Shown here: positions 1 through 46,830 of the stretch, piece after piece | Layout: each line of letters opens with the position of its first letter | Numbering within the stretch: position 1 is the stretch's first letter | IMG/VR virus record: IMGVR_UViG_3300050014_000280 | Coordinates: 1 to 46,830 of that record | Direction: 5' to 3' (one strand) | Origin: a virus | DNA length: 46,830 bases | The notes under the pieces: generated by a model | What the model was told of the DNA's origin: nothing | Databases searched by the model: none | What the model saw: only the letters and a program-made list of their open reading frames with translations | Position numbers and translations under genes: made by a program

Positions 1-269
1 GGTTTCCAGGTGAGAGTCGGAGTTCGGGGAACTTGGCTCGGCTTCCGACGTGGTGAACCTCGAATGATCGCTCTTGGGATTCGTGGTGCCGGCCGCATCG
101 CTGGCAGGTTCCCCGATCCCGCGCCCACACAGCCGCACTGACGCGCTTCCACTCTTTCGAAGTGTAGAAGGCATCATGCTCTGCGGTGATCCCGCCGCGC
201 CAACAGTGGTTGTTGGCCCCGCGGTTGTGATCGTACGCGCAAGCAGGGCTGCAAAATCGGCGGTCGCGG
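1..269. repeat. Left copy of the terminal (circularising) repeat
   Basis: Bases 1-269 match 46562-46830 in the same orientation, with mismatches at 128, 143, 221 and 223 (partners 46689, 46704, 46782 and 46784). Two minus-strand reading frames, the methyltransferase and the nested HNH gene, continue in phase from base 1 into 46561, so the simplest reading is a circular or circularly permuted molecule with an assembly overlap. The mismatches mean the two ends were built from slightly different molecules, or that two copies of this segment truly exist. Confidence 0.9.
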
Positions 270-544
270 TATGTCGGAGAAACCATGCGTTCGCGTCCGC
301 AATGCTCGCAGACAGCAAGCACCTTCCGAGACTGTGTATCTGAAGATCGCCGGTTGCGTAGTTGAGTAGCACATTCACGGCTACAGCACTCTCGCAATCT
401 TGACGGGGTGTGCTGGAACTCATGCCCGCAGACGGCGCAGACGGAGGTGACGCGCTTCCGACGGCACGCGAGACACTCTTTGGCGACCTGCGACTTGGGC
501 GCTCCGCAGGCGCATTTCTCTGAGTGTTCTCGGCTGAGAGGCAT
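1..544 (-). CDS. HNH homing endonuclease nested in dcm, N-terminal part (continues at the right end)
   Basis: From ATG at 544 this frame encodes a Cys-rich protein with several zinc-knuckle pairs (CACG, CLAC, CAVCG, CCSREC, CEHCG, FCSPAC), then the NNHCWRGG linker and a classical HNH core beginning WARDRGTCQRCG. It runs off base 1 and resumes at 46561 in phase. The joined gene spans 636 bases and encodes 211 residues. It sits in a different reading frame from the methyltransferase around it and fills almost the whole insert. Family knowledge: such HNH proteins are homing endonucleases that spread their own gene into a conserved target, here the dcm motif IX/X junction. Confidence 0.85.
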   Translation of the reverse strand, partial: MPLSREHSEKCACGAPKSQVAKECLACRRKRVTSVCAVCGHEFQHTPSRLRECCSRECATQLRNRRSSDTQSRKVLAVCEHCGRERMVSPTYRDRRFCSPACAYDHNRGANNHCWRGGITAEHDAFYTSKEWKRVSAAVWARDRGTCQRCGRHHESQERSFEVHHVGSRAKFPELRLSPGN

Positions 545-1836
545 ACCGTGATTATAGCAGTTTCTTCGACTTCAGGGAATCCCTGTAGCCGCTCGCACTC
601 CAGCGGCGTGAGTCGGCGCACGGCGTACCCTGCACGGGCGAGCCGCGGCGGCTCGCCCGTGGTGAGCGCGAAGCTGCTGCCGTCGTCGCGTGTGGCGATC
701 TGCTGGCCCGGCCGCTTGCTGAACGCGGGGGCCATGACAATCGGCGGCCCGTCGTGGACCGTCGTGAGCGTCGGCGAGAAGCCTTCGGTTATCTCGGCGT
801 TCGCGCATCCCTGCGCCATTACGAGCATCTTGTCGCCGCCACCCTGCGATTCCCGGAGCGCGAATGAGCAATCGTCGCCGAGTTCGATGTCGGCACCGTC
901 CTCGCGGCCCCGGAGGGCGACCGCCACGGCTCCGTAGCCGCTCCCAGGCTTACCGCCGCCCGTCGAGAGTGCGTGTGCCACGTCAGACGTGACGACCTCG
1001 CCGCGGTGGTTCTCGGAGAAGGACACCGCGTCCGGCACCATGACACCGTGCAGGTCGCGTGTCGTGAGCGAGTACATCGCGCCGTCATCGTTGATGCCTA
1101 TGCCGTTTTGCTTCCGTTCGCGGGGGCAGTTGACCGACTGGAGCGCCACCTCCGGAACGAGATGGCCCGCTGCGGCTCCACTGGCCCCAGGGTCATAGCC
1201 ACCCGTTCCAGCTCGAGCCTCAAGGGTTCCGGCAACTCCCGCTCCCGATTCGCGGCGCGGCGCAGGATGCCCGCGCAGGCTTTCGCGCTCAAGTAGTACC
1301 GCTGCGGCACGCTGCCAGTCGGCTCCAGCACATCCGACAACGAACACACGCCGGCGTCGCTGGGGGACGGCACGAGAGTGTGATTCCACTCGGACGTATT
1401 GAGCGTCCAGCACTCGGTAGGCGAACCCATACCCGAGTTCGACCAGCCCCCCGAGGAAGGCTCCAAACGCCCGTCCGCCATCGACCGACAGCACACCGGG
1501 GACGTTTTCCCAGACCACCCACTCTGGGCGCACAGCATCAACAGCGCGGAGATATTCGAGGGCCAGGTTGCCACGAGGGTCAGCCAGTCCCTTCCGCAGT
1601 CCTGCGACGCTGAAGGCTTGGCAGGGACTTCCTCCAACGAGAACATCGACTCCTGCATACGGGCTCCAGTCGGTCACGGCGGTGATATCGCCCAGGTTCG
1701 GCACGGACGGGTAGCGATGCGCGAGTACCGCACTCGGGAACGGTGCCGGATCGGCGAACGCGACCGGCTCCCATCCGAGCGGCTCCCACGCGACGGAGGC
1801 CGCCTCGATTCCCGAGAACAGCGAAAGGTAGTTCAC
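1..1836 (-). CDS. dcm: DNA cytosine-5 methyltransferase, N-terminal part (continues at the right end)
   Basis: C5-cytosine methyltransferase, which transfers a methyl group from SAM to cytosine, probably protecting phage DNA from restriction. Visible motifs: I (LSLFSGIEAASVAW, first 20 residues), IV with catalytic Cys (GGSPCQAFS, about residue 70), VI (VVWENVPG, about 110), VIII (PQRRRRVFVVG, about 160) and IX (RRLTPLECERLQGFP, ending at base 574). GTG at 1836 is chosen because it overlaps the upstream TGA as GTGA; an in-frame ATG lies at 1848. After GFP the homology stops and a foreign insert begins, but the frame stays open to base 1 and continues at 46561. The joined frame would be 685 residues, about 464 without the insert. 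Target specificity is unknown. Confidence 0.9.
   Translation of the reverse strand, partial: MNYLSLFSGIEAASVAWEPLGWEPVAFADPAPFPSAVLAHRYPSVPNLGDITAVTDWSPYAGVDVLVGGSPCQAFSVAGLRKGLADPRGNLALEYLRAVDAVRPEWVVWENVPGVLSVDGGRAFGAFLGGLVELGYGFAYRVLDAQYVRVESHSRAVPQRRRRVFVVGCAGADWQRAAAVLLERESLRGHPAPRRESGAGVAGTLEARAGTGGYDPGASGAAAGHLVPEVALQSVNCPRERKQNGIGINDDGAMYSLTTRDLHGVMVPDAVSFSENHRGEVVTSDVAHALSTGGGKPGSGYGAVAVALRGREDGADIELGDDCSFALRESQGGGDKMLVMAQGCANAEITEGFSPTLTTVHDGPPIVMAPAFSKRPGQQIATRDDGSSFALTTGEPPRLARAGYAVRRLTPLECERLQGFPEVEETAIITVCLSAENTQRNAPAERPSRRSPKSVSRAVGSASPPSAPSAGMSSSTPRQDCESAVAVNVLLNYATGDLQIHSLGRCLLSASIADANAWFLRHTATADFAALLARTITTAGPTTTVGAAGSPQSMMPSTLRKSGSASVRLCGRGIGEPASDAAGTTNPKSDHSRFTTSEAEPSSPNSDSHLET
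551..559 (-). promoter_or_regulatory. Extended -10 promoter for the nested HNH gene (probably leaderless)
   Basis: On the minus strand TGCTATAAT (559 down to 551) is a perfect extended -10 (TGN-TATAAT). Only six bases separate TATAAT from the HNH ATG at 544, so transcription would begin at about the A of the start codon and give a leaderless mRNA. There is no good -35 hexamer, which extended -10 promoters do not need. It lies inside the insert, about 15 bases from its dcm-proximal edge, so the mobile unit seems to carry its own promoter. Confidence 0.5.
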
Positions 1837-2270
1837 GACACCCCCCATGCCCTATGCCACGCAGCCTTCCCGCCGGCGCGGTACGCCTTCACCGCACGCC
1901 AGCAGGAGCACTCGCCGCACAGCCGCCAGTCCTTGTGGTGATGCCCCGGCGCGAAACCCATGCCGCGCTTGTGCTTCCACGAGGGCATGAACTGGAACAG
2001 CCCGGTGGCGCCGGTGTGCTTGTTGACCGAGTGCGGATGGAAGTGGGACTCGCGTTCGACGATGCGCAGGCCGCGCGAGAGGACCCAGCGCGTAGAGGCC
2101 GCGCTCAGGTGGTAGTGGTCGGCCGCCGCAGTGATGTAGCCGCGCACCTGCGACCGGGTGAGCGTGGTTGCGGCGTGCGCTGGCGTGACACCGAGCGCCA
2201 GCAGCAGCGCGACCACGAGCGCGATCGCCAGCAGATAGACCACGAGGATCAGCGCGCGGACCCGGTTCAT
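1833..2270 (-). CDS. Secreted lytic transglycosylase (SLT/lysozyme-like)
   Basis: 145 residues. An N-terminal hydrophobic segment (residues 6-33, ending AHA) looks like a signal peptide or anchor. The rest matches the soluble lytic transglycosylase fold: VERESHFHPHSVN with a probable catalytic Glu at 74, then GATGLFQFMPSW. It should cleave the glycan backbone of peptidoglycan outside the membrane. It is encoded in the early unit, away from the lysis cassette at 13-14.7 kb, so a role other than final lysis is possible. Start ATG 2270 overlaps the upstream stop as ATGA; its TGA overlaps the dcm GTG. Confidence 0.8.
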   Translation of the reverse strand: MNRVRALILVVYLLAIALVVALLLALGVTPAHAATTLTRSQVRGYITAAADHYHLSAASTRWVLSRGLRIVERESHFHPHSVNKHTGATGLFQFMPSWKHKRGMGFAPGHHHKDWRLCGECSCWRAVKAYRAGGKAAWHRAWGVS

Positions 2271-3683: not shown

Positions 3684-4637
3684 TCAGAGGCCAGCGTAGG
3701 CGTTCGGCCGGCCCGACTTGAAGTTCCGTGCGCTCAGTCCGCTTTTCTTGCCGTTCGCGTGCATCTCGCGCTCGATGGGATCGGCCTCGTCGAGGAAGCG
3801 CTCGTAGCCTCTGGCGCGCTGCATGAAGTCGGCGAGCGTCCATCGGTAGGTCCACTGCGACTTCGGGTCGAGCAGACAGACGCCGAAGTTGGCGATGGCG
3901 TGTTCGAGCTCAGTGAGCGACTCCTCGCTGCTGCGCGACATGTCGAGCGTTTCGAGTGCCTTCGTGATCGCCTTCTCCATCACCGGGGTCATCGCTAGGT
4001 GCTGTGTCAGGTGCTTGCCCTGGAACTCGTAGGACTTCCAGAACTCGAAGATGCGATCGAGCCGATCATCGCGAACCTTCGCGGGCGCGCGCTTCCTTGT
4101 CTTCTTCACTGGAAGATCATCAAGGTCAACACCATGTAGTTCTTTTAGCCCCCCGTTTTTCGCGGCATGTCCTACCGTGACGCCGGGGGTCACGGCACTA
4201 CCTTCGACCTGCGCTTTCTTCTTCGCGCGCGCGAGGACTTCCGATTCTACCGTGTCCTCCCACGACACGGCACTCTCGGGCGTGTCCACTTTGTCCACAG
4301 AGTTATCCACAGGCTGTGAACACGGGTTCTCGCACGCGAATCCGCATCCGGTCCGGTGCAGCGTCACACTGAGCCCCGCGCTGTCGCGCCCGTTCACCTT
4401 GCCGCCGGAGAACACAGCGAGGTCGAGATCGGAAAGCATCCCGAGTGCCTTGCGGAGCGTCTGGTAGGAGGTGCCGGACATCTCGACGAGCTCCTTGTGC
4501 GAGGTGGTGAATGGTGTGCCGTATTCGGGGCACAGCCGCAGAAGCGCGCCGTAGACAATGAACCCGTAGGGTCCCATCGCGCGCAGTTTCGAGAGCGCGT
4601 AGCGGGTCAGCGGTATGCAGCCGGAGGGCGCGCTCAC
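3684..4637 (-). CDS. Replication initiator with winged-helix N-terminus
   Basis: 317 residues. The N-terminal 90 residues read as a winged helix (LTRYALSKLRAMGPYGFIVYGALLR, then TSYQTLRKALGMLSDLDLAVFSGGKV). The middle is a charged linker and the C-terminal 120 residues are helical with aromatic residues (DRIFEFWKSYEF, WTYRWTLADFMQRARGYERFL), as in phage initiators placed before a DnaC-like loader. GTG 4637 is chosen because it overlaps the upstream TGA as GTGA; a start at 4664 would intrude further. The linker-coding DNA contains two dyad repeats and two DnaA boxes, so the origin seems to lie inside this gene. Confidence 0.8.
   Translation of the reverse strand: MSAPSGCIPLTRYALSKLRAMGPYGFIVYGALLRLCPEYGTPFTTSHKELVEMSGTSYQTLRKALGMLSDLDLAVFSGGKVNGRDSAGLSVTLHRTGCGFACENPCSQPVDNSVDKVDTPESAVSWEDTVESEVLARAKKKAQVEGSAVTPGVTVGHAAKNGGLKELHGVDLDDLPVKKTRKRAPAKVRDDRLDRIFEFWKSYEFQGKHLTQHLAMTPVMEKAITKALETLDMSRSSEESLTELEHAIANFGVCLLDPKSQWTYRWTLADFMQRARGYERFLDEADPIEREMHANGKKSGLSARNFKSGRPNAYAGL
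4173..4311. other. Putative replication origin inside the initiator gene: two dyads and two DnaA boxes
   Basis: Two 26-bp dyads, TACCGTGWC-N7-GWCACGGCAC, lie at 4173-4198 and 4248-4273 in the same orientation. Two DnaA boxes follow: TTGTCCACA (4291-4299) and TTATCCACA (4303-4311), 12 bases apart. The same two elements recur in the divergent intergenic region at 41.4-41.8 kb. An origin within the initiator coding sequence is the lambda O arrangement. The dyad could instead be a regulator operator; the DnaA boxes argue for replication. Confidence 0.7.
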
Positions 4638-9189: not shown

Positions 9190-10316
9190 GCGAGCACCTT
9201 CCCTTCGATTTCCGTCTGCAGCCTGAGCAGTTCGGGCAGGTTCGCCTCGTACTCGCCGCCCACCATCTCGGAGTAGGAGCGCAGCGCGTCCGACGGCTTT
9301 GCATCGACCTCGATCAGCCGCACCGTCCGCGCCTCGTGGCGCGTGAACTTCACGGCCGGCTTCGAGACATGGAGCGCGCCGAACTTGTAGAGTTCGTCGG
9401 TCAGCGCGGCGATGGCCGAAGCGGTCTGCTCCCCGGCTGCGGCCTCTCCCACGATGCGGCACACTGCGCCGGGGATAGGTTCGGACATGCCGTCGAGCGG
9501 GATGTCCACGAACCGCACGCTCGGTGTGAGGATCTCCTCCACCGCGATCTGCCCGTCCTCGTTCGTGATGTGCAGGATGCGCGTGGGCTGGTCGCGCTCG
9601 CCGGAGTCGGAACGCACGGGCGAGCCGATGTAGGTCACGTCGTTGTAGTCGCCGTGAAGCACCTGCGGCCGGTGGATGTGGCCGGAGAACACGGCTGCGA
9701 GCTCGGGGCGGTCGAACACGGAGCGCGGCACCATGAAGTCGGATGACTCCCCGAGCTGCGGCTGCACATCGCTGTTGTAGGTGGCACCGCCGATGGTGAA
9801 GTGAGTGACGGCAACGAGCGGAACGCCGGCGCGCTTCTGCGAGCACAGGTCGGCCACGATGCGTTCGAGCGCGCCCGCCATGTAGCGGTTCTGCTCGCCC
9901 ACGAGCAGGTCGGGGTAGGCGGACGCCACGAACGCACGCGAGAACCAGGGGATCAGCGCGAGGTCGATGCCATCGAAGGACTCGACGGCGGGTTTCCACT
10001 CGACGGCGTTACGGAACGCCTTAGTCGCGAGCGGTGACATGACACCTTCGCCCACGGCGAGGTCGTGATTGCCGGGGATGATGCGGTCGGCCTTGAGCAG
10101 TTCGGCAGCGTTGTACGCCCATGCCTGCGGGCGGACAGAGGTGAACAGGTCGCCAGCCACGATGAGCACGGATTCGAGGTCCGTGGTCGTGTCTGAGATG
10201 AACTGCGCGACCTGGCGCGCCTCGTTCTGGCGCCATGAGGGTGAGCCGTCGAGAGCGGGACCGTCGTGCGTGGTGAGGCCGAAGTGCGGGTCGGCGCACA
10301 GGATGATGCCGCTCAT
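9186..10316 (-). CDS. sbcD: SbcD/Mre11-type metallophosphoesterase nuclease
   Basis: 376 residues. Phosphoesterase motifs appear in order: CADPHFG (I), AGDLFTS (II), PGNHDLA (III), VAVTHFTIGG (IV) and SGHIHRPQVL (V), all metal-binding residues present. The C-terminal third would contact SbcC. The nuclease supplies the endo/exonuclease activity of the SbcCD complex. ATG 10316 overlaps the stop of the repeat-protein gene as ATGA. Confidence 0.9.
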   Translation of the reverse strand: MSGIILCADPHFGLTTHDGPALDGSPSWRQNEARQVAQFISDTTTDLESVLIVAGDLFTSVRPQAWAYNAAELLKADRIIPGNHDLAVGEGVMSPLATKAFRNAVEWKPAVESFDGIDLALIPWFSRAFVASAYPDLLVGEQNRYMAGALERIVADLCSQKRAGVPLVAVTHFTIGGATYNSDVQPQLGESSDFMVPRSVFDRPELAAVFSGHIHRPQVLHGDYNDVTYIGSPVRSDSGERDQPTRILHITNEDGQIAVEEILTPSVRFVDIPLDGMSEPIPGAVCRIVGEAAAGEQTASAIAALTDELYKFGALHVSKPAVKFTRHEARTVRLIEVDAKPSDALRSYSEMVGGEYEANLPELLRLQTEIEGKVLA

Positions 10317-11041
10317 TTGGCCTTCGCCTCCTCCGCGCAACGAGCAAGGAGTTGGCCGCCTTGACGCTCCCGAGCGGCGTCCCGAGCGGCGTCCCAAGCG
10401 GCGGCCCAAGCGGCGTCCCAAGCGGCGGCCCAAGCGGCGTCCCGAGCGGCGGCCCAAGCGGCGGCCCAAGCGGCGTCCCGAGCGGCGTCCCAAGCGGCGG
10501 CCCGAGCGGCGTCCCAAGCGGCGTCCCAAGCGGCGTCCCAAGCGGCGGCCCGAGCGGCGTCCCAAGCGGCGGCCCAAGCGGCGGCCCGAGCGGCGTCCCA
10601 AGCGGCGGCCCGAGCGGCGGCCAACTCCTTGCTCGTTGCGCGACCGTCCGCGAAGCGACGTGCCGTCTCGATAGCCGCACGCGGGCGCTTGTCGTTCGGG
10701 TAGTCGCGCTCGTAGAGGTCGAGCACGCCCTCCGCGCAGTCGCACGCGAACAACCGTGCCGCGCGCTCCGTGAACACGCCTACCTTGCGGACTCGGCGCA
10801 CCGACTCGCACGCCGCCTTGTCGTTGCCCACGACCACAGCGCCGCGAACGGCGAACTCGTACACGGTGTCGCCGATCTCAAGATGCTCGATCAGGTCGCG
10901 CGCCTTGCAGACGTGGTAGCCGCTCTGGCAGAGAACGGGCGTGGTGTCCGGCATCCAGCGGTTGTGCGGATACTCGATCACGACAGCCCCACCGACAGCC
11001 TTCGACTTCGTACCCCGCAGCGCCTTGTAGTAGGTGCTCAC
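10313..11041 (-). CDS. Imm-5-like protein with a 21-unit tetrapeptide repeat tail
   Basis: 242 residues. The N-terminal part (YYKALRGTKSKAVGGAVV, LCQSGYHVCKARDLIEHL) resembles the DUF7666-type module. The middle (ARLFACDCAEGVLDLYERDYPNDKRPRAAIETARRFA) resembles Imm-5 putative immunity proteins. Residues from about 140 form 21 units of [A/D]-A-A-[W/R], then a short tail (ERQGGQLLARCAEE). Such proteins occur in many phages and bacteria, function unproven. The array DNA is flanked by perfect 26-bp inverted repeats, so the C-terminal tail is the reverse complement of the array entry. Confidence 0.75.
   Translation of the reverse strand: MSTYYKALRGTKSKAVGGAVVIEYPHNRWMPDTTPVLCQSGYHVCKARDLIEHLEIGDTVYEFAVRGAVVVGNDKAACESVRRVRKVGVFTERAARLFACDCAEGVLDLYERDYPNDKRPRAAIETARRFADGRATSKELAAARAAAWDAARAAAWAAAWDAARAAAWDAAWDAAWDAARAAAWDAARDAAWAAAWAAARDAAWAAAWDAAWAAAWDAARDAARERQGGQLLARCAEEAKAK
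10335..10641. repeat. Perfect 26-bp inverted repeats flanking the tandem array
   Basis: Bases 10335-10360 are the exact reverse complement of 10616-10641. The arms bracket the 12-bp repeat array and overlap its right end. In the protein one arm encodes RATSKELAA and the other GGQLLARCA. Confidence 0.9.
10371..10622 (-). repeat. 12-bp tandem repeat array, 21 units, coding
   Basis: On the minus strand each unit reads [GCC or GAC]-GCC-GCT-[TGG or CGG]. Only two positions vary, each between two states, giving A/D and W/R choices. The order of the units is irregular, with no obvious higher-order period. Confidence 0.9.
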
Positions 11042-41573: not shown

Positions 41574-41659
41574 GGGCGCGGGTTCTACCGTGACGCCGGG
41601 GGTCACGGCACCCGTCCTGACCTGCGGCGTTGTCCTCGCGCGCGTGAGGGGTGCCGAAG

Positions 41660-45088: not shown

Positions 45089-45438
45089 CGTCCCTTCTGT
45101 TCTGCCACGCTCAACCTCCGCTTGAGGTTGAGTCGCAGCCCGATCGACTTCTCGCCACCGCCAACGACAGCGGCGACATGTGCCCACACCTCGTAGTCCT
45201 GCGCGAACGAGTGCCGCAGCACGGCCGCCTCGGTGCGCGGGATGTAGCCGCACTGCTGGCCGGGGAGCACGCGACCGCGTTCGTCCACGCGCCACACGCC
45301 AGCCGCGTTCGGGTCGTACTCGTTCGTCGGCTCAGGAAGGACGCGCAGCCAGTCGCCTTCGCGCACGCTCGCGAGCACCTCTTGCCGTCCCTCGAAGGTC
45401 ACGCCGGCCACCTTCGTTTCGATGCGCCAGTCGTCCAT
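45085..45438 (-). CDS. HIRAN-domain protein, 117 aa
   Basis: VAGVTFEGRQEVLASVREGDWLRVLPEPTNEYDPNAAGVWRVD...GQQCGYIPRTEAAVL is a complete HIRAN domain, which in helicases such as HLTF binds 3' DNA ends. Here it stands almost alone. ATG 45438 overlaps the radical SAM stop by one base. A role in binding stalled forks or DNA ends fits the recombination genes in this unit, but is inference. Confidence 0.85.
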   Translation of the reverse strand: MDDWRIETKVAGVTFEGRQEVLASVREGDWLRVLPEPTNEYDPNAAGVWRVDERGRVLPGQQCGYIPRTEAAVLRHSFAQDYEVWAHVAAVVGGGEKSIGLRLNLKRRLSVAEQKGR

Positions 45439-46343
45439 CACAGCATCGCCTCCGTCCTCGATGGTAGCGCCCTGCCGTGGCCCATGCCGAGGCGGTATTC
45501 GGACCACGCAACCGATCGTGAGATCGCCTTGTTGTTCCAGTACCGAGCGAAGCGCTGCTGGTAGGGGTCGGTCTTGTCGAACGGCATCACAAACGGCATC
45601 GCGCCCAGGGATCGTAGCGTTTCCGTTCGGTAGACATCCTCGGCCTCTGTCGTGTCGAAGCCGATGAGCACGTACACCAGCACGTCGTGCAACGACGGGT
45701 AGTGCTGCTTGAGCGTGGTGATTCCCGCGACGACCTTGCTCTCCTCGCTCATCGAGTCCCAAGCGAAGTGCATGCAGCCCCACCGCTTCACGCCCATGAG
45801 CGCCTCGCACATCTCGTCCGTGAGCAGCCGCACGTCCAGCGACTCGAACGCCGTGCGTGTGCCGCGGTCGCGCAGCTCGTGACAGGTGTCCACGAACAGG
45901 TCCGGCATCGCGGTCAGGTTGTCGTCCATCAGCCGAAGGCGCGACTGACCGCGCAGGAAGTCGTCCAGCACTCCCACCTGATGCACCGCGCCGTCCTGAA
46001 GCCACACCACGCACCACGGGCAGCGACGGATGCAGCCGCGGGTGATACGCCCCATCGCGTAGGTGCAGCCGAAGAAGTCGTATGCCGGATAGCGCGCCTC
46101 GACCTCGGCCGGCAGCAGCGTCGTGAGGTCGTAGCCAGTCCCGCCGCTGACGACCTCGCAGGCCCAGGGCGTCGAATCGTCGGGCGTGAAGTCGAACACC
46201 TTGGAGCGGCGCACGACGTCGTACCGGCCCCACAGCGGCGCGGCGATCTCGACGTGATGCCCGTGCGCCCGATCGTCGGCGACGTACTTCATCAGCGCGA
46301 GGTTCGGAATCAGTGAGTCAACGGAGACGATGCCGACGTTCAC
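45438..46343 (-). CDS. Radical SAM protein
   Basis: 301 residues. The iron-sulfur motif CxxxCxxC is clear (GCIRRCPWC, about residue 100). VNVGIVSVDSLIPNLALMKYVADDRAHGHHVEI at the N-terminus resembles the B12-binding-like lead domain of radical SAM enzymes. RLMDDNLTAMPDL, FESLDVRLLTDEMCEALMGVKRWGCMHFAWDS and VLVYVLIGFDTTEAE follow the TIM-barrel pattern. GTG 46343 overlaps the dcm stop as GTGA. The substrate is unknown; being coupled to a DNA methyltransferase, nucleic-acid modification is a possibility. Confidence 0.82.
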   Translation of the reverse strand: MNVGIVSVDSLIPNLALMKYVADDRAHGHHVEIAAPLWGRYDVVRRSKVFDFTPDDSTPWACEVVSGGTGYDLTTLLPAEVEARYPAYDFFGCTYAMGRITRGCIRRCPWCVVWLQDGAVHQVGVLDDFLRGQSRLRLMDDNLTAMPDLFVDTCHELRDRGTRTAFESLDVRLLTDEMCEALMGVKRWGCMHFAWDSMSEESKVVAGITTLKQHYPSLHDVLVYVLIGFDTTEAEDVYRTETLRSLGAMPFVMPFDKTDPYQQRFARYWNNKAISRSVAWSEYRLGMGHGRALPSRTEAML

Positions 46344-46830
46344 AGTGCCGCCTCGATCCGGCGGCCGATGAAGGACATGACGTTGACCGCCATGCTGTTG
46401 CCGATTGCGTGGTAGCGCACGCCATCGCCTGCGTGCGGCTTCTTGTTCCACGGCACGTCGGTCCAGCCGCTACGCCTTGTCAGAGCGAAGGAGAACGAAC
46501 TGGCGCTGAGTGTTTCGGCGGGAATGAATGAAGCAATGGCATTCACGACAGAGCAGCACAAGGTTTCCAGGTGAGAGTCGGAGTTCGGGGAACTTGGCTC
46601 GGCTTCCGACGTGGTGAACCTCGAATGATCGCTCTTGGGATTCGTGGTGCCGGCCGCATCGCTGGCAGGTTCCCCGATCCCGCGCCCATACAGCCGCACT
46701 GACACGCTTCCACTCTTTCGAAGTGTAGAAGGCATCATGCTCTGCGGTGATCCCGCCGCGCCAACAGTGGTTGTTGGCCCCACTGTTGTGATCGTACGCG
46801 CAAGCAGGGCTGCAAAATCGGCGGTCGCGG
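46340..46830 (-). CDS. dcm: DNA cytosine-5 methyltransferase, C-terminal part (joins the gene at 1-1836)
   Basis: The C-terminal 43 residues (46471 down to the stop at 46340) carry GWTDVPWNKKPH followed by motif X, AIGNSMAVNVMSFIGRRI, the usual end of phage cytosine methyltransferases. Upstream of 46471 the frame is open to the window edge but reads only as the shadow of the HNH gene, with no methyltransferase homology. The TGA stop overlaps the GTG start of the radical SAM gene, so the two are translationally coupled. Whether the full-length protein with its 221-residue insert is made, or the insert is removed or bypassed, cannot be told from sequence. Confidence 0.85.
   Translation of the reverse strand, partial: ATADFAALLARTITTVGPTTTVGAAGSPQSMMPSTLRKSGSVSVRLYGRGIGEPASDAAGTTNPKSDHSRFTTSEAEPSSPNSDSHLETLCCSVVNAIASFIPAETLSASSFSFALTRRSGWTDVPWNKKPHAGDGVRYHAIGNSMAVNVMSFIGRRIEAAL
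46470..46830 (-). CDS. HNH homing endonuclease nested in dcm, C-terminal part
   Basis: This part holds the catalytic region: CQRCG zinc ligands, FEVHHVGSRAKFPELRL (HH of HNH), NLVLLCRECH (N and the second zinc pair) and a basic tail, ending at TAG 46472-46470. The stop lies one base from where methyltransferase homology resumes (Ser codon 46471-46469), so the endonuclease ORF defines the right edge of the insert. Compared with the left terminal copy, it differs by two synonymous changes and one Arg-to-Ser codon. Confidence 0.85.
   Translation of the reverse strand, partial: RDRRFCSPACAYDHNSGANNHCWRGGITAEHDAFYTSKEWKRVSAAVWARDRGTCQRCGRHHESQERSFEVHHVGSRAKFPELRLSPGNLVLLCRECHCFIHSRRNTQRQFVLLRSDKA
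46562..46830. repeat. Right copy of the terminal (circularising) repeat
   Basis: This segment duplicates bases 1-269 with four substitutions and no indels. It lies inside the HNH gene nested in the methyltransferase gene. Cutting one copy and joining 46561 to 1 restores both genes. Confidence 0.9.

Follow-up and report, generated by a model that had tools for sequence, protein, structure and literature searches.

The window, by which we mean the whole stretch of DNA analysed, is a 46,830 bp record from a tailed phage carrying terminase, portal, tape measure and Dit genes. Its ends share 269 bases (1-269 and 46562-46830, with four mismatches), which implies a circle of 46,561 bp. A C5-cytosine methyltransferase (MTase) gene on the minus strand crosses the circle junction, with its ATG at 1848, the motif IX sequence LQGFP ending at 574, and its stop at 46340. 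The reconstructed protein matches Pfam DNA_methylase (PF00145, 5.8e-45). Downstream of an interruption of 663 nt, the MTase reads SGWTDVPW...GNSMAV (motif X) to the stop. The features of the locus are listed below.

572..1848, minus strand: 5' part of the C5-MTase, from the start to motif IX LQGFP plus the GA of a split Asp codon (from Pfam, translation and boundaries)
1..571, minus strand: first 571 nt of the insert, comprising a 27-nt leader and the greater part of the HNH gene; no stop in the MTase frame over this length
551..559, minus strand: extended -10-like element TGCTATAAT, a putative promoter exactly 6 nt before the HNH ATG, at a conserved position
1..544, minus strand: N-terminal part of the HNH endonuclease ORF, ATG at 544 (Pfam HNH PF01844, 8.8e-10)
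46470..46561, minus strand: last 92 nt of the insert, past the circle junction; also the C-terminal part of the HNH ORF, with its TAG
46340..46469, minus strand: 3' part of the C5-MTase, with the C of the split Asp codon, GWTDVPW..., motif X GNSMAV and the stop
46562..46830, no strand: terminal overlap, a second copy of bases 1-269 with 4 mismatches; circular or permuted genome

Anatomy of the inserted methyltransferase gene

The cleanest boundary of the insert is CCTGA/CGGCTGG (the slash marks the junction), and excision of 571..1 together with 46561..46470 restores LQGFP-DGWT (LQGFPDGW). The HNH ORF is intact and encodes 211 aa in the MTase+2 frame, from the ATG at 544 to the TAG at 46470. 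This stop codon forms the last three bases of the insert, and the 27-nt leader is its sole noncoding part. Across the 221 insert codons the MTase frame is free of stops, and it is in phase afterwards, so that read-through would give a protein of about 689 aa, as compared to 468 aa without the insert. The first-pass annotation had described a dcm gene cut between LQGFP and SGWTDVPW by an insert that is almost wholly an out-of-frame HNH gene, with about 221 stop-free codons in the dcm frame and the phase kept; translation bears this description out, and an independent contig supports the circle junction. This contig (L004, IMGVR_UViG_3300050015_000341) runs unbroken through the junction and carries the left-end variant of the overlap, and the first 1352 window bases are identical in it. 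The four mismatches between the end copies hit three codons, of which two are silent for the HNH protein and all three alter an MTase-frame residue. This pattern points the same way as the family comparison of stop-free frames below.

Further observations were made in the window. A radical SAM domain gene (phrog_9298, 45438-46451) lies directly downstream of the MTase gene and overlaps its 3' end, and a short near-perfect palindrome (633-661, a self match on the opposite strand) sits in the MTase 5' part. An array of 12-bp direct repeats occupies 10308-10679 and is reported as 22 overlapping 120-nt copies with a step of 12, and a 30-nt repeat of 97% identity occurs at 4169-4198 and 41582-41611, with 37 kb between the copies.

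Rfam covariance models gave no intron match to the window at gathering level, nor to five members of the family described below at E<=1, so that the search for a group I or II intron suggested at first pass came out as anticipated there. The same annotation held that the insert is not an intein, and this stands, because the nuclease frame (MTase+2) differs from the host frame and no protein-splicing frame is present; in the MTase frame the insert begins with Glu and contains no Pfam domain. An unrecognised self-splicing intron that excises the insert from the mRNA nevertheless deserves mention, as phage group I introns often carry homing HNH genes and the record of phage Schatzie (L212), in which the methylase is left unannotated, labels a similar locus an intron with the remark 'unable to determine intron boundaries'. 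We regard such an intron as quite improbable given the Rfam result, the mere 27 noncoding nt in the window insert, and an open in-phase frame that would be needless if the insert were spliced.

Distribution, target site and mobility

Searches with the HNH protein, together with alignments, identified 14 lineages besides the window (L100-L102, L103, L104, L105=L072, L110, L111/L112, L113, L114, L115, L116, L117/L118, L119, L121 and L123). In all 15 lineages, a homologous HNH gene lies at the same MTase site, the MTase occupies the HNH+1 frame, and this frame has no stop. The other alternate frame of the HNH genes contains 3-32 stops. The GC content of the HNH gene ranges from 28% (L121) to 60% (window), and in a 14-member alignment the proteins share 36-77% identity with that of L123 and keep the HNH residues and many Cys positions. 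L123, a contig of a Bacteroidetes MAG found in a second profile scan, is the only member from genome contigs; the first scan of these contigs, with a two-sequence HNH alignment, found no family member. Searches by tblastn with HNH queries returned distant HNH genes or nothing from both PLSDB and the INPHARED phage collection, with no close relative in the latter. L091 and L092 were considered as extra cases and rejected, having one stop in the frame equivalent to the MTase frame and no identified host gene. In L113, two tRNA genes (3858-4003) immediately follow the inserted MTase gene.

The MTase motifs on both sides of the insert are intact, and in every complete member the MTase frame continues in phase into motif X as a single ORF. 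This continuity bears on whether the MTase is made as two polypeptides that reassemble, as in Aeh1 nrdA. Such splitting is known for intronless phage homing genes (PMC2988022), but the known cases give two separate coding regions, and with the frame continuous in all lineages we consider a split gene very improbable here.

At least 126 related MTase loci carry no insert by automatic scoring at the site, with a few more recognized by eye. The uninserted homologues read LQGFP-DGWT, LQGFP-DDWT or LQTV-DNYT at the target, and thus the insert-free dcm homologs with an intact target that the first-pass annotation had called for do exist. In a tree of the exteins (the MTases without their inserts), the inserted genes are scattered, and well-supported branches force at least six state changes; this was a quick tree, in which L115 and L111 sit on long branches. 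In addition, the inserts of L117 and L118 show 0/645 differences, as compared to 41/779 and 20/487 in the exons, and the identical tract reaches only slightly beyond the insert. A recent homing event with short co-conversion tracts would be expected to leave such a pattern. Taken together, the scatter of inserted MTases in the tree and the identical inserts within diverged exons argue that the element homes.

Comparable arrangements were found with other, unrelated nucleases. At L173:2447-3097, an HNH_3 (PF13392) gene, rather than a PF01844 gene, occupies the same MTase site (LQTV) in the same relative frame, and the MTase frame has 0 stops in 216 codons at 33% GC. In mycobacteriophage Bombitas, gp109 (L211:2204-3631) is a C5-MTase with a nested gene for an HNH_3 and Myb-like HTH protein and no stops; the site for this type follows a QRRRR motif, near motif VIII. 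Schatzie, like Bombitas an isolated mycobacteriophage, likewise has an HNH_3/Myb-like gene nested there in a C5-MTase. L111 combines both types in one MTase gene, namely an HNH_3/Myb gene 44% identical to that of Bombitas and a window-type HNH gene (L111:2606-3226 and L111:4001-4612), both nested in MTase+2, and the MTase frame runs for 892 codons without a stop. At locus GC, a stop-free frame has a probability of about 3e-6 to 1e-5 in L173, Bombitas and L111. In Thibault (L213, 2200-3600), the same HNH_3/Myb gene is annotated and the upstream methylase N-terminal frame is broken relative to Bombitas and Schatzie.

The open frame and the expression of the nested gene

Openness was evaluated by holding the HNH protein fixed, resampling its codons synonymously, and recording the chance of 0 MTase-frame stops. 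For the window alone, this chance is 0.18-0.41 (0.25 with its own codon usage). The first-pass statement that so long an open frame is improbable at this GC content is therefore not sustained for the window by itself, and the significance comes only from the family comparison. With each gene's own codon usage, the chance falls to 0.0024 for L103, 0.014 for L119 and 0.0038 for L121, and the joint value for 14 members is 10^-19.7; with third positions set by locus GC it is 10^-38. These joint values serve as an index and not as a strict p-value because the lineages are related, though at 40-65% protein identity most synonymous positions can be expected to vary independently. The stop-free calculation proposed at first pass thus fails for the single gene and succeeds for the family, at about 10^-20. 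Eight free-standing HNH relatives carry 1-17 stops in the equivalent relative frame. As far as sequence comparison can tell, a host frame kept open across lineages at 28-60% HNH GC is evidence that read-through matters.

Two observations, the window-alone probability and the four mismatches in the terminal overlap, might suggest that the frame of a GC-rich gene is open by chance or that the circle junction was misassembled. The absence of stops family-wide, down to 28% GC, and the passage of L004 across the junction render this explanation negligible.

The two overlapping products differ in their conservation. HNH-frame identity exceeds MTase-frame identity in all pairs compared; between the window and L101, the HNH proteins are 63% identical as compared to 35% for the MTase filler. 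Fourfold sites of the HNH frame show a weak excess of conservation (0.377 versus 0.287), which falls short of showing that the filler peptide is strongly constrained. The AlphaFold2 model of the HNH frame has a mean pLDDT of 87. In the MTase-frame model, the insert has a pLDDT of ∼27-54 and the MTase core mostly 75-96, with blocks near the pre-motif-IX region also low. The simplest picture from this model is that the MTase-frame insert would form a flexible loop joining motif IX to motif X. A Foldseek search with the HNH model gave weak matches only, to HNH nucleases, and the HNH sequence profile matches the HNH part of a group II maturase (6me0) and the phage HNH protein 5h0m.

Stop avoidance could serve something besides an active MTase. 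For example, the MTase frame may be kept open as ribosome cover against polarity on the nested HNH message, in a methylase that is dead. The faster divergence of the MTase-frame peptide relative to HNH, and its modelled disorder, would suit this explanation. However, polarity would not require the phase to be kept, and motif X is in frame in all complete members; the MTase motifs up- and downstream of the insert are also intact. We therefore consider a dead methylase unlikely and favor a read-through product that retains MTase function.

The leader offers a candidate for the expression of the nested nuclease. Aligned on the HNH ATG, the leaders read TGTTATAAT, with the hexamer ending exactly 6 nt upstream of the ATG. 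At this fixed position, at least four of six bases fit TATAAT in 11/15 lineages, and TG is found at the extended -10 spacing in 10/15. None of 20000 shuffles reached the observed score, a comparison uncorrected for phylogeny. The window leader holds a perfect TGCTATAAT (TGnTATAAT type) even though the locus GC is 66%. The Bacteroidetes -7 consensus is TAnnTTTG, and the equivalent leader positions of L119 and L123 read TATATTTG and TATCTTTG, both of which appear to fit it. L101, L103 and L117 are without the promoter-like motif, and L101/L102, also without it, have GGAGG 9 nt upstream. A scan for consensus -35/-10 promoters found nothing at the leader, as is expected for an extended -10 element without a -35. 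A promoter for the HNH gene in the leader is likely but unproven. Because the motif lies 6 nt before the ATG, transcription would start at or near the ATG and yield a leaderless message. The leaders are homologous and double as MTase coding sequence, so that peptide constraint could account for part of the motif conservation, as could descent.

Proposed mechanism and comparison with known systems

Based on these results, we think it likely that the element is a homing gene, with neither intron nor intein, that is written in the MTase+2 frame with the host frame left open and resides at motif IX of phage C5-MTases. A mobile HNH gene would insert into the very conserved motif IX target, and, with no splicing, the host gene would be spared by the combination of the MTase+2 frame, an insert length divisible by three, and a stop-free MTase frame. 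One stretch of DNA would then give two products, an HNH nuclease selected as a protein and an MTase filler of ∼220 residues, the latter presumably disordered and looped out between motifs IX and X without loss of MTase activity. The nuclease would cut uninserted MTase alleles, and repair would copy the element in. Its expression would proceed from its own start, mostly through the extended -10-like promoter and a leaderless message and, in some members, through a Shine-Dalgarno sequence. The first-pass annotation had suggested that homing insertions compatible with read-through may form a class, the host product then bearing a large loop from motif IX to motif X; the 15 lineages, the absence of a match to any intron family and the structural model lend support to such a class.

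A broader reading is that frame-preserving homing genes represent a third strategy of general occurrence, found in phage methylases with at least four nuclease types and a host frame that is always nuclease+1, and that the present family has a promoter of its own, which overlaps host codons and gives rise to a leaderless nuclease mRNA. We put this forward tentatively, as a possibility that falls somewhat short of an even chance. If true, coding genes could be entered and left functional by a third route, in addition to those of introns and inteins. The present family already illustrates a third strategy by which selfish genes occupy conserved coding sites, and it offers numerous natural pairs of overlapping reading frames whose order of age is known, the filler frame being younger than the enzyme.

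The arrangement itself is already known from the ShiLan domain, an out-of-frame HNH gene in a mycobacteriophage methylase with an open host frame and no intron or intein features (Arsenault, Gosselin, and Gogarten, Genes 2025, PMC11855218; an earlier related paper is Gosselin 2023, PMC9957025). The 2025 study surveyed actinophages and database hits, contains no promoter or stop-avoidance test, and raised the question of how the hidden HNH gene gets translated, a point for which the leader motif provides a testable promoter hypothesis. The window element shares with ShiLan an alternate-frame HNH gene in a phage methylase, an open and in-phase host frame, a patchy distribution, an HNH stop at the insert end and the lack of intron or intein signatures, and in the ShiLan sequence examined here the HNH gene is also in the MTase+2 frame with 0 MTase-frame stops. 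It is therefore a hidden HNH gene of the ShiLan type. However, it is not the ShiLan domain itself, whose host is an N6/N4 methylase (PF01555) interrupted at another site, as compared to the C5 host (PF00145) of the window, and whose nuclease is HNH_3 (PF13392) instead of HNH (PF01844), the two being similar only in a zinc-ribbon/NPNWRGG stretch. Pacc40 gp60 and Applejack gp54/gp55 (PMC11855218; PMC12613952) are likewise out-of-frame HNH genes in methylase genes. Both phages are mycobacteriophages, Pacc40 gp60 is a helicase/N4-type methylase, and the likeness to the window family is one of general arrangement.

Among other intronless elements, mobE in Aeh1 nrdA and mobA in T4 gene 60/39 (PMC2988022) are also homing genes in functionally critical coding regions, but there the host is split into two polypeptides with no continuous host frame, whereas the MTase frame of the window is continuous. 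The homing endonucleases of group I introns and inteins (e.g., I-HmuI and the LittleE capsid intron) likewise combine a conserved target with a nuclease inside the host gene, but these types splice at the RNA or protein level, and no splicing element was found in the window insert. Relative to these systems, the C5-MTase families, the site, the breadth, the evidence for selection on openness and the promoter-like motif are new as far as the literature was searched, subscription papers and preprints aside. With them, a single published curiosity, ShiLan, becomes a comparative case.
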